Shown one piece after another: positions 20,004-24,566 of a stretch of DNA of 36,300 nt (positions within the stretch are counted from its first letter, which is position 1; the number at the start of each line of letters is the position of its first letter). A program made the translations under genes and the position numbers. A model generated the notes under the pieces. That model had not been told where the DNA came from, ran no database searches, and saw only the letters and a program-made list of their open reading frames with translations. This DNA is from Nitrospiraceae bacterium (GTDB lineage: Bacteria; Nitrospirota; Thermodesulfovibrionia; UBA6902), in the NCBI GenBank assembly GCA_020346765.1, contig CP070788.1, positions 2,497,119 through 2,533,418 of the forward strand. The letters run 5' to 3'.

Positions 20004-20954
20004 ATGCGCGAAATACTCTATGATGTCATCATCATAGGAGGCGGCCCGGCGGGCCTGAGCGCTGCCCAGTACGCGGCGCGGGCAAACCTTCAGACCGTTG
20101 TACTTGATAAATCTCCATCCGCAAGCGCCCTTTCCTACACAGGCAGGATTGAAAACTACCCGGGCCTCCTTGAACCACTCCCGGGAAAGGAACTCCTGGA
20201 CAGGTTCCGCGATCAGGCCATAAAGTTTGGCGCTGAATATGTGGAAACGCAGGTCGTGGGGGTGAACTTTGATGCGGACATCAAGGAAGTTCTTGCAACA
20301 GAGCGCGTGTACAAAGGCAAGACCGTCATTATCGCCACAGGCTCCATGGGCAGGAAGCCGGACATCCCCGGTGAGGAGAAGTTTCTCGGCAAGGGCGTCA
20401 GCTACTGTGCCACCTGTGATGCCGCCTTTTTCAAAGGCGAGACCGTGTGCATTGCCGGTGAATCCGATGAAGCAGTCAAGGAGGTGGACGTGCTGACGGG
20501 TTTTGCCAAAACAGTCTATGTTATTGCTCCCTCGGAAAAGCTGAATGCCTCTGCAGGCTCTCCCCCGCTCAACCACCCTTCGGTAAAACTTCTCGCCGGA
20601 TACCGGATCGTCAATATCCAGGGTAACGAAATCGTCGCATCAATCACCATACGGAACACGGAAACAGGTGAGGAACGCGGTCTCGATATGGCCGGAGTCT
20701 TCCTGTATCTCCACGGAAGCAGGCCCGTGGTCAACTTCCTCGATGCAGCGCTTCCGCTGAGTGAAACATCATGCGTTGTCACGCACCGGACAATGGAGAC
20801 CTCTGTGCCCGGTGTCTACGCCGCCGGTGATGTCGCCTGCGGGGAGGTGCGGCAGGTGGTCATTGCCTCGGCATACGGCTGCATAGCAGCCCTTTCCGCA
20901 GAAAAGTTTATCCGCCAGAGAAAACGTATGAAATATGACTGGGGCAAATCCTGA
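20004..20954 (+). CDS. Thioredoxin-reductase-like flavoprotein lacking NADPH-binding motifs
   Basis: 316 residues. The FAD motif GGGPAG (12-17), the redox-active CATC (135-138) and the C-terminal VPGVYAAGDV are intact. The pyridine-nucleotide domain is not: GESDEA (152-157) replaces GGGDSA, and APSEKL (175-180) replaces the HRRDxxRA that binds the NADPH phosphate. Clostridial FFTR and the cyanobacterial DDOR-type flavoproteins show the same losses and use ferredoxin or another flavin route, so this is probably not an NADPH enzyme. The window also encodes an orthodox TrxB (2926-3846), which argues for a separate role. ATG 20004, AGGA about 9 nt upstream, own promoter. Confidence 0.92.
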   Translation: MREILYDVIIIGGGPAGLSAAQYAARANLQTVVLDKSPSASALSYTGRIENYPGLLEPLPGKELLDRFRDQAIKFGAEYVETQVVGVNFDADIKEVLATERVYKGKTVIIATGSMGRKPDIPGEEKFLGKGVSYCATCDAAFFKGETVCIAGESDEAVKEVDVLTGFAKTVYVIAPSEKLNASAGSPPLNHPSVKLLAGYRIVNIQGNEIVASITIRNTETGEERGLDMAGVFLYLHGSRPVVNFLDAALPLSETSCVVTHRTMETSVPGVYAAGDVACGEVRQVVIASAYGCIAALSAEKFIRQRKRMKYDWGKS

Positions 20955-21119
20955 GGGTTCCGCAGTTCCCTAGTGCCATAAAGCCATAGAACTACAGTGC
21001 CACAGGAGTTGAGGGTGCGGAACCGCGCCCCCTGCAACAGCGCTTACCCATTTTCCCGCTTAGGGTGAGGGTACCGCACCCCTGTTCTGACACTTTGGAA
21101 CACGGCACTGTGGCACTTC
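20954..21119 (+). repeat. Octamer-periodic array with inverted second half
   Basis: Starting on the last base of the TGA stop of the TrxR-like gene, seven 8-nt units run to 21009, mostly of the form NNAGTGCC or NNAGTTCC (CTAGTGCC at 20970, ACAGTGCC at 20994). The reverse-complement word GGCACTNN appears in tandem at 21104-21119. An 8-bp inverted pair (21013-21020 with 21074-21081) lies between, and 20996-21005 pairs with 21108-21117. The whole could fold into one long imperfect hairpin in the spacer before the QueG-like gene. Confidence 0.65.
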
Positions 21120-21135
21120 TGTGTTACAATGATCC

Positions 21136-21861
21136 ATGGACCTCACGGCAGAGATCAAGGCCTTCTGCAGAAAAAGCGGAGCAGATTGTGCCGGCATTGC
21201 AGACCTTGTCCTAATTGACGGCCTTCCCGTCATTCCCTCTGATCTACTGGTTCTGTACCGCTATGCCGTGACCGTGGGGATAGGCCTCAGGAACGACATC
21301 GTTGACACCATCATGAACAGACCCTCCGCAAAGTACGCCAGGCATTGCCGGGAGGTCAATCAGGTTTTAAATGATCTTTCGTCCCGTATTTCACACTGGA
21401 TCGAGGAGAAGGGGTACAAGGCTGAAGCAATTCCCGCGTCACAGAAAGTGGACGATGAAGGTCTCTGCGGAAGCATTTCCCATAAGGCTTTAGCCCGGCT
21501 TGCCGGCCTGGGATGGCAGGGGAAAAGCCTCCTTTTGGTCACTCCCGCCTTCGGCCCGAGGGTCCGGCTCACATCGATCCTCACAGACATGCCGCTTCAG
21601 CCGGACAGTCCGCTAAAAAACCGGTGCGGCACATGCACGGAATGCACAGAGGCCTGCCCTGCGGGGGCCATTAAAAACGTCTCAACGGAGAGTCATTATG
21701 CAACTCGCGAGGAGGCGCTCCACCTGGACAGGTGCCACCATCAGCTCCTTGAGTTTCAAAAACTTCCCGAGATCGGATACACCTTCTGCGGGGTGTGCAT
21801 CAGGGTGTGTCCCTTCGGGAAAAAGAAATCGGCCAGAAAGAAAAAAACTGCGGGTCAATAA
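21136..21861 (+). CDS. Double [4Fe-4S] protein, epoxyqueuosine reductase (QueG)-like
   Basis: 241 residues. The C-terminus holds two ferredoxin-type clusters: Cys164/167/170/174 in RCGTCTECTEACPAGAI and Cys218/221/225 in CGVCIRVCPFGKK, plus Cys200. The N-terminal part (GADCAGIADL, GIGLRNDIVDTI, KVDDEGLCGSISHKALARLAGLGWQGKS) has the cobalamin-reductase-like layout of QueG, including the RLAGLGWxGKSLLLVT segment. It is shorter than QueG (about 350-380) and lacks its HEAT-like tail, so it is a relative common in anaerobes rather than QueG proper; the substrate is unknown. TACAAT (21125-21130) lies 5 nt before ATG 21136 and no Shine-Dalgarno sequence is seen. Confidence 0.88.
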   Translation: MDLTAEIKAFCRKSGADCAGIADLVLIDGLPVIPSDLLVLYRYAVTVGIGLRNDIVDTIMNRPSAKYARHCREVNQVLNDLSSRISHWIEEKGYKAEAIPASQKVDDEGLCGSISHKALARLAGLGWQGKSLLLVTPAFGPRVRLTSILTDMPLQPDSPLKNRCGTCTECTEACPAGAIKNVSTESHYATREEALHLDRCHHQLLEFQKLPEIGYTFCGVCIRVCPFGKKKSARKKKTAGQ

Positions 21862-23231: not shown

Positions 23232-23432
23232 ATGGAACGTGCACTGCGGGAAGAATATGAACAGACGGTAAAAAAGCGGGATGAAGTGCGGGAACACCTC
23301 AGAAAACTGGAGGCTGAAAAGCCTAAAGACCATTACAACATCACGATTACCCGCGACCGGCTTGCCTACTGGGAGGGAAAGACAGAGGGCCTGAAGTTCG
23401 CCCTTGATCGTCTTAGTGCCAAAGAACCTTAG
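23232..23432 (+). CDS. Small coiled-coil protein, 66 aa
   Basis: Charged helical protein (ALREEYEQTVKKRDEVREHL, then a second helix YNITITRDRLAYWEGKTEGL) that looks like a helical hairpin. AAAGGGA lies about 7 nt before ATG 23232. Upstream, TATAAT at 23149 gives a leader of about 70 nt with a small hairpin. The last codons (AKEP-stop) fall inside an octamer array. Function unknown. Confidence 0.7.
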   Translation: MERALREEYEQTVKKRDEVREHLRKLEAEKPKDHYNITITRDRLAYWEGKTEGLKFALDRLSAKEP

Positions 23433-23492
23433 TGTCACAGTGCCGAAGCATTACAGAACTACGGCACTATGGCACTTCTGCTCTATGGAACT
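23413..23492 (+). repeat. Octamer-periodic array, ten units
   Basis: Ten consecutive 8-nt units without phase slip from 23413 to 23492. Units 1-4 are NNAG(T/A)(G/A)(C/T)C types (TTAGTGCC, AAAGAACC), units 7-8 are the reverse-complement word (ACGGCACT, ATGGCACT) and unit 10 is ATGGAACT. 23431-23445 pairs with 23462-23476 with three mismatched positions, making a hairpin with a 16-nt loop. Unit 2 and unit 3 encode the final KEP-stop of the coiled-coil gene. Confidence 0.72.
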
Positions 23493-23563: not shown

Positions 23564-23991
23564 ATGACTAGCCCCGTAAACAGAAAAAAATTCGAAGAAC
23601 TCATCAAGAACTGGATCGTGATGGAAGACAGCACCATTGAATCAGCCGTAGACCTTATCGGTCAGAGCAAAACCCGCTGCTGAAGACCATGATCGAGATG
23701 GTCAAGATGGACTCACAGAAACATCGCCGGATACTTGAAGCAATCAGGCTCAGCCTGGACTCGACAGTGACTTTTACCACCGATGACCTCAAGGTCATTG
23801 ACTTCTTTGTGGATAAGCACGCCCTCATAGAGAAAAACGCCATTGAGACGGCCGAGCAGGCGCTGGCAATGAGCAGCCTCCCCATCCCGAAGATGCTTCT
23901 TGAGCACCTGCTGGAAGATGAAAAAAAACACGATGCGTACATGGGCGAGCTTAATGAAATAAAGCTGTACATGGCCAAGGGGGCGGACTGA
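23564..23991 (+). pseudogene. Ferritin-like helical protein with a -1 frameshift
   Basis: Two adjoining frames form one protein. The first starts at ATG 23564 (AGGAG upstream; MTSPVNRKKFEELIKNWIVM) and stops at 23683. Shifting -1 in AGCAAAACCC (23666-23675) continues as NPLLKTMIEMVKMDSQKH and onward to 23991, about 142 residues in all. The result is a four-helix pattern with carboxylate/His motifs (MEDSTIE, DSQKH, KHALIEKNAIE, EDEKKH), as in diiron ferritin-like or rubrerythrin-like proteins. Possible causes are loss of one A from a five-A run, an assembly error, or programmed -1 slippage on the A-run. The second half alone could start at ATG 23689 but would miss helix 1. Confidence 0.75.
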
Positions 23992-23993
23992 CG

Positions 23994-24101
23994 ATAGTGC
24001 CATAGAGAAGAAGTACCAGAGGGCCGGAGCTTTGAGTGAGCGGAAACCAAGACCGTTCCTTAGTAGTTTGGAACTACAGATGTAGGGAACTATGGTTCTT
24101 T
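23994..24101 (+). repeat. Octamer-periodic array between ferritin-like and Nudix genes
   Basis: Beginning 2 nt after the ferritin-like stop, five 8-nt units run from 23994 to 24033 (ATAGTGCC, then GAAGTACC at 24010, AGAGGGCC at 24018). After a less regular stretch, the inverse word GGAACTNN recurs in 8-nt register at 24070, 24086 and (as GGTTCTTT) 24094. The last units enter the 3' end of the Nudix gene and supply its KEP-stop. Confidence 0.6.
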
Positions 24102-24566
24102 CGATCGGAGATGCGCTTCAATCATTCCCCGTGCCTTGCGCAGGATGTCCCGTTCGCTGTTATAGGAGAGCCGCCCCAGAGCATCGTCGATGGCAAACCA
24201 TCGTGCTTCGTCCACTTCATGGTCATGATCATCGGTACTTCCCTCCAGGTATTTCAGCAGGAAGAAGTGGACCGTCTTATTTACCTTCCGCTGCTCCTGC
24301 CTGAGAAAATACCAGTAGGATATCTGCCCGATCCTGCTGATGATCTCCCCTGTCAGGCCTGTTTCCTCCCGGACCTCCCTCAGTGCGGCGGCAGGGGCGT
24401 CCTCACCCTTGTCAATCATGCCCTTGGGCAGGCACCAGGACCTGCTGCCCCTCACCGCGACAAGGGCCACCGCTGTTCCCTGCCCGGGGTCATCGCCGTG
24501 CCCGTGCGGGCGGAATATGACCCCTCCCGATGAGATCCGCTTTTCTATTGACGGCGGCCGCGACAT
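24090..24566 (-). CDS. Nudix hydrolase
   Basis: 158 residues. The Nudix box is complete at about 49-71 (G-x5-E-x7-REVREETG), with Mg-binding glutamates in REVREE. The preceding SWCLPKGMIDKGE and following YWYFLR...KTVHFFLL strands resemble diadenosine polyphosphate/(d)NTP hydrolases of the MutT/Ap4A group; exact substrate unknown. ATG 24566 is 8 nt before the rseP stop end on the same strand, so it is probably the last gene of the rseP transcription unit. Its C-terminal KEP-stop is formed by octamer-array units. Confidence 0.93.
   Translation of the reverse strand: MSRPPSIEKRISSGGVIFRPHGHGDDPGQGTAVALVAVRGSRSWCLPKGMIDKGEDAPAAALREVREETGLTGEIISRIGQISYWYFLRQEQRKVNKTVHFFLLKYLEGSTDDHDHEVDEARWFAIDDALGRLSYNSERDILRKARGMIEAHLRSKEP

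Follow-up and report, generated by a model that had tools for sequence, protein, structure and literature searches.

The octamer array at 23413-23492 of the window (the whole 36,300-nt stretch of DNA that was analysed, from a Nitrospiraceae bacterium) belongs to a family of inverted octamer arrays. We favor, at a probability of roughly 0.6, the reading that members of this family are dispersed palindromic elements like the Rickettsia palindromic elements, built of degenerate octamers and kept where they are harmless. The family has a recurrent anatomy, a near-fixed polarity and unit words that are specific to each genome. Its copies lie mostly behind stop codons in the window's genome, and the same kind of element sits in frame within FolC, CarA, NadE and UvrA in another genome, G178, with empty sites in relatives. 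To our knowledge, peptide-encoding palindromes within working genes are mainly known from Rickettsia. Pattern matches reach about two hundred per genome in one class, which probably belongs to Nitrospirota, and the origin of such elements, the protein sites that tolerate them and the cause of the genome-specific words can now be tested.

Anatomy of the window array

Ten octamers follow one another without a slip from 23413 to 23492, and our reading of the sequence bears out the preliminary description on this point. The period-8 self-identity of the array, 35/64, is the joint top value in the window; it was equalled at lag 8 in 2 of 200 Markov-2 windows, and at any lag from 5 to 15 in 7 of 100. 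Lag-8 periodicity taken alone is marginal and lends the array weak support, and we dropped it as the only evidence because it is too weak against the Markov-2 windows. A chance pattern in a single intergenic region would fit this marginal periodicity, but it is refuted by the scans described below, in which counts exceed those of reversed and shuffled controls both across the genome and across the class, and its probability is close to nil.

The array as a whole is an in-register quasi-palindrome. Its 34-nt arms (inverted-repeat pair I1), at 23415-23448 on the plus strand and 23459-23492 on the minus strand, are 74% complementary and enclose a 10-nt spacer, or loop, at 23449-23458. No other palindrome of such quality is present in the window, and six shuffles yielded none. 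Unit by unit, the left (F) arm, AGTGCCAA AGAACCTT AGTGTCAC AGTGCCGA AG, stands opposite the right (R) arm, AGTTCCAT AGAGCAGA AGTGCCAT AGTGCCGT AG, and the units are of the GGMACTNY type. All AGTNCC-type words lie to the left and all GGNACT-type words to the right. The earlier account of two word orientations in one register was incomplete: the array holds both because it is a fixed-polarity palindrome and not a mixture.

We compared the array with a canonical 34-nt arm, AG(NNCNNNAG)4, placed in F orientation on the left and R orientation on the right. The four octamers of the right arm fit this grammar strictly on the minus strand. On the left, AG keeps its 8-nt spacing between 23415 and 23455, and the C of unit position 5 is absent in two of five units, so that the left arm falls short of the strict grammar by two C misses while the array as a whole has the canonical form. 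A 66-codon ORF on the plus strand (23232-23432), which has no Pfam match, ends within the left arm with the residues SAKEP and a TAG stop.

Copies behind genes in the window's genome

The window's genome (G000) is a single contig of 2.69 Mb with an estimated completeness of 80%. The preliminary description had named as its refutation a genome-wide scan with no excess of arrays over control sequence, and such scans did show an excess. The pattern GGMACTNYGGMACT matches the genome 27 times, against 4 matches for the reversed pattern, while the genomes of family members hold 0-2 matches, on par with their controls. Strict arms, defined as AG(NNCNNNAG)4 with at most one C missing, number four in 436 kb of this genome, two of them inside the window; Markov-3 shuffles gave 0.05 and reversed sequence gave none. 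At one locus of the genome, L308, both arms are strict. A 24-position arm profile, which was partly trained on sites that it finds and is not independent of them, gave 32 matches at E<=1 in the window's genome and 0-2 in most relatives. Its best match in the genome is the window array itself (23456-23477, corresponding to G000:2520574-2520595). The profile also singles out G011 and G007 among the relatives, because their octamer arrays share the register, though with a different word, AGTGCAAA/AGTGCAGA. A further pattern, GGNACTNNGGNACT, was discarded as too loose, with 41 matches against 39 in the control. The preliminary description had proposed a degenerate octamer family that exact-repeat tools would miss; these scans, together with the class-wide survey below, reveal one, and the simple grammar AG(NNCNNNAG)4 finds its elements where such tools fail.

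Two further copies lie within the window. The first, at 20954-21127, consists of an F array (20956-21005) and an R array (about 21094-21119) around an inner inverted repeat (21013-21024/21070-21081), and it is flanked by a thioredoxin-reductase-like gene that ends at 20954 and a 4Fe-4S-protein gene that starts at 21136. The other, at 23994-24101, has a strict four-octamer left arm on the plus strand (23996-24029), which begins 5 nt past the stop of an ORF at 23689-23991, and a right array on the minus strand (24068-24101), which extends over the terminal part, stop codon included, of a NUDIX gene (24090-24566, minus strand) whose product has the C-terminal residues RSKEP. The ORF at 23689-23991 and its neighbor at 23564-23683 form a pair that looks helical and ferritin-like, apparently split by a frameshift near 23680, and that has no Pfam match. 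In two other genomes, G061 and G062 (loci L220 and L221), the orthologue of the NUDIX gene, annotated MutT, is followed directly past its stop codon by words of period ~7 of the GAGAGCT or AGCTGAT type. Because relatives do not share the sequence 3′ of the NUDIX gene, we found in them no clean site that lacks the window copy.

All 26 copies examined in the window's genome lie between genes or at gene ends, mostly at gene 3′ ends as far as location relative to genes was compared. By our own gene calls, made from ORFs and a codon score, 20 of them fall in tandem gaps, 6 in convergent gaps and none in divergent gaps, against a background of 50 divergent gaps in 242; two copies called tandem, L008 and L013, may be divergent by eye, so the depletion of divergent gaps is only a trend. 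The arms often begin no more than ten bases from a stop codon or include it, as behind the C-termini SAKEP, RSKEP and YYIVP. Unit position 8 is mostly T in this genome (59%), which produces TAG at unit borders. The idea that arms serve as suppliers of stops in all frames was dropped, since G178 and a Saprospiraceae genome, G069, use stop-free words.

This placement raises the question of whether the elements are functional RNA hairpins at mRNA 3′ ends, in which folded inverted arrays would act on transcription, by pausing or terminating it, or serve as a barrier to 3′ exonucleases. The proximity of arms to stop codons and the scarcity of divergent gaps would both suit such hairpins, as would the RNA folds of the window copy (z = -3.3) and of L011 and L019 (z = -5.4 and -5.4). 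The inverted structure proposed in the preliminary description turned out to be larger and stronger than noted, and as DNA the window copy folds with z = -3.5. Against this, no U-tract lies past the window array, where GTCATACG comes next to the right arm, and no terminator was called at the array. A scan of the array with Rfam 15 returned sub-threshold microRNA and lncRNA matches only, with no family that fits. Many copies are one-armed, and the elements of G178 sit within genes.

The matching of arms to one another points in different directions in different genomes. In G069, the two arms of an element fit each other better than swapped arms do (z = 5.2), as expected of a selected hairpin, but in the window's genome own arms have no advantage over swapped ones (n=9, z = -0.3). 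At the two variable positions N3N4, the fit of own arms is poorer than that of swapped arms, both in G178 (p about 0.015) and in G057 (p about 0.002, where copies are not independent). Arm covariation, strong in G069, absent in G000 and reversed at N3N4 in G178 and G057, was therefore dropped as general proof of a selected hairpin. A tentative reading of the N3N4 mismatch is that perfectly paired arms are avoided, for instance because they could be cleaved as palindromes or by RNase III. Each copy could form a hairpin as RNA, which in G178 would be a ladder of short helices and internal loops; the predicted RNA folds of several G178 elements are made of 6-bp helices and 2x2 internal loops at N3N4, every 8 nt. 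Taking both sides together, we consider a hairpin function at mRNA 3′ ends unlikely as the explanation of the family. Of the earlier suggestion, the ability to fold stands, as does a mostly 3′ placement in the window's genome, but a role at mRNA 3′ ends alone does not generalize, given the in-frame elements of G178. Under our preferred reading of dispersed elements kept where harmless, an effect of the copies on mRNA 3′ ends in the window's genome is plausible as a by-product.

A class-wide family with genome-specific words

We surveyed 198 genomes of the phylum by pattern, counting four consecutive units of AG--C--- and of the reversed pattern. Matches numbered 207 versus 0 in G057, 82 versus 3 in G014, 67 versus 3 in G166, 54 versus 0 in G176 and 52 versus 1 in G178, with 39 versus 17 in the window's genome and zero in many others; G058-G060 and G180 have about none. 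A separate four-unit GGMACT scan, run on GTDB contigs, yielded for the most part perfect microsatellites from unrelated taxa and was used only to find degenerate inverted cases.

The canonical octamer palindrome was defined from G178, G057 and G129. In forty loci the F arm is AG(NNCNNNAG)n, where n is mostly 4, and a spacer of 3-114 nt separates it from the reverse-complement form. Polarity is near-fixed, with the AGNNC arm on the left and the GNNCT arm on the right: within 150 nt we counted 43 F..R pairs and no R..F pair in three genomes, and further loci added 11 F..R pairs and one R..F pair. The four-plus-four form also occurs in loci of one Nitrospinota and one Phycisphaerae genome, as well as in two ‘Nitrospirae’ genomes; their RseP shares 53% identity with that of the window, and the phylum is therefore probably Nitrospirota. 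Unit words are specific to each genome, and within the octamer only AG--C--- is nearly fixed. The Saprospiraceae genome G069, at first assigned to the family, fails this strict grammar and was kept only as an analogue. The roughly 40 hairpin elements examined there (L197-L251) have GGTTCC/AGTTCC units and mirrored arms, and they include register slips and an inner GGGTT...AACCC; they represent an analogous, laxer family in another phylum.

Unit similarity in G178 is 0.69 within an arm, compared with 0.54 between arms and 0.55 between elements. Copies have no master sequence in common, and growth in place therefore suits the data at least as well as copying. The spacers of four loci in G178 and G057 (L370, L371, L374 and L391) have a T-rich stretch and an AAGGAA...TTCC inner palindrome in common across families, a sequence likeness hinting at common descent of that subtype.

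The likeness of units within arms is what neutral degenerate microsatellites would also produce, that is, tandem octamers made by slippage that last where they are harmless and have no identity as elements. Perfect octamer tandems of similar words do occur in many unrelated genomes, and other short-period arrays fill the same FolC loop in other genomes. Slippage, however, leaves the polarity of 43 out of 43 pairs in three genomes unexplained, along with the usual four units per arm and the pairing of inverted arms, and we regard this explanation as highly improbable.

The preliminary description knew of no octamer family like this one, a statement that does not hold: Geobacter metallireducens has 24 inverted pairs of class-1 sites, each of four tandem octanucleotides GTTGCTYN, listed as ‘predicted global regulator binding sites’ (PMC2700814). 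By description, these sites resemble our elements in having four octamers per site on opposite strands at variable distance, in multiple intergenic copies, and the layout, the closest in print, recurs in our family, with a modal unit number of 4 and 43 inverted pairs. GTTGCTYN also fits AG--C--- on the other strand if YN = CT, and G057 arms hold GTTGCTCT, so that the wider family is compatible with this consensus while the window copy does not match it. The Geobacter sites differ from our elements in that they use a single fixed word in one genome, with conserved inner units, whereas here the word varies by genome and copies enter genes.

This comparison suggests that the four-octamer arms might be a paired protein-binding array in which a nucleoid or regulator protein bridges the two sites, a model put forward for G. 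metallireducens. The published layout, with inverted pairs of four-unit arms at variable distances, speaks for such an array. So does the makeup of the unit, in which AG and C5 are fixed and N3N4 vary in one arm independently of the other. Yet the unit word differs between genomes of one family, and a fixed binding protein would need to follow it; in-frame insertion in unrelated housekeeping proteins is unexpected for regulatory sites; and there is no known protein. We thus judge a protein-binding array quite unlikely, less so than slippage and more so than a 3′-end hairpin.

Several other repeat families invite comparison with the dispersed octamer elements. REP and REPIN sequences are accompanied by a RAYT transposase. 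Like our elements they are small, dispersed, extragenic palindromes, and according to PMC3733652 and PMC3116915, REPs are 20-40 bp long and most carry GTAG or CGTC tags. Cyanobacterial STRRs and the TAACTGA heptamers of Beggiatoaceae are likewise short-period, tandem and intergenic, with lineage-specific copy number (PMC4679880 for TAACTGA), but they are direct, exact or nearly exact heptamers, unlike the window array with its period of 8 and inverted arms, which places that array outside the STRR type. The TAACTGA heptamers lie mostly just 5′ of start codons and have no predicted fold (PMC4679880). Among the papers searched for the unit strings themselves, none was relevant.

In-frame copies in G178 and empty sites in FolC

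In G178, 16 of 17 paired elements lie in frame within stop-free ORFs. The host genes encode CarA, FolC (two elements), NadE, UvrA, LpxK, a P-type ATPase, ComEC and a BadF-type protein (three), and the inserts encode peptides such as RAEEQKSRRAEEK-TSELPNFRTSEL. In most host proteins, Pfam domains flank the insert on both sides or run across it. Rickettsia palindromic elements (RPEs) are similarly dispersed small palindromes that lie in frame in unrelated metabolic genes and add a peptide (PMC10969869). The likeness to G178, where unrelated protein genes are the hosts, is drawn at the level of function. RPEs are about 150 bp long and encode conserved peptides, whereas the octamer elements are about 65-180 bp long and made of degenerate octamers, and the copies of the window's genome, unlike RPEs, lie outside genes.

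FolC, compared across 13 genomes, provides filled and empty versions of the same sites. The first loop holds an insert in G178, G176 and G129 and lacks it in G209, G180, G052, G166 and G000. An insert in the second loop is common to G178 and G176 and absent in G209, G166, G000 and G057. Other short-period arrays occupy the second loop elsewhere, namely CATCACTC x4 in G129 and an inverted heptamer array (AGGCTAA / TTTGCCC) in G180. As an observation in its own right, the FolC loop (L410-L416, in G178, G176, G129, G180 and G209) looks like an insertion hot spot for differing short-period arrays.

Unit position 8 differs between genomes in a way that fits tolerance of the arms. It is A in 78% of G178 units, which gives no TAG, and the copies lie inside genes; it is mostly T in the window's genome, which gives TAG, and the copies lie behind genes. 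G057 has C or T at this position, and its copies are mostly intergenic. We propose that elements without a gene of their own arrive by insertion or local build-up and survive only where they are least harmful, in the manner of RPEs. In the window's genome, a unit-final T before AG would create TAG stops, and an arm would be tolerated only behind genes; in G178, a unit-final A would create no TAG, and an arm could be tolerated within genes. We saw no insertion event with a target-site duplication. In a more specific version, which we consider possible though doubtful, the elements are a class not described before, and a dedicated process builds them octamer by octamer (about four per arm, with heptamers in some genomes). 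They would occupy surface loops of proteins and the spacers behind stop codons in Nitrospirota and several further phyla; each genome would set its own word, and the arms would be kept imperfect at two of eight positions.

PARCEL palindromic coding repeats are also peptide-encoding palindromic DNA that spreads among genes, but they are tandem 25-residue repeats that form whole domains, whereas the octamer elements are short inserts in housekeeping proteins (PMC2996958). Three G178 copies are placed close to the beginning of a protein, in apparent signal-peptide regions. At L374, L377 and L378 in G178, near the start of secreted proteins, the T-rich spacer encodes part of an apparent hydrophobic signal segment.
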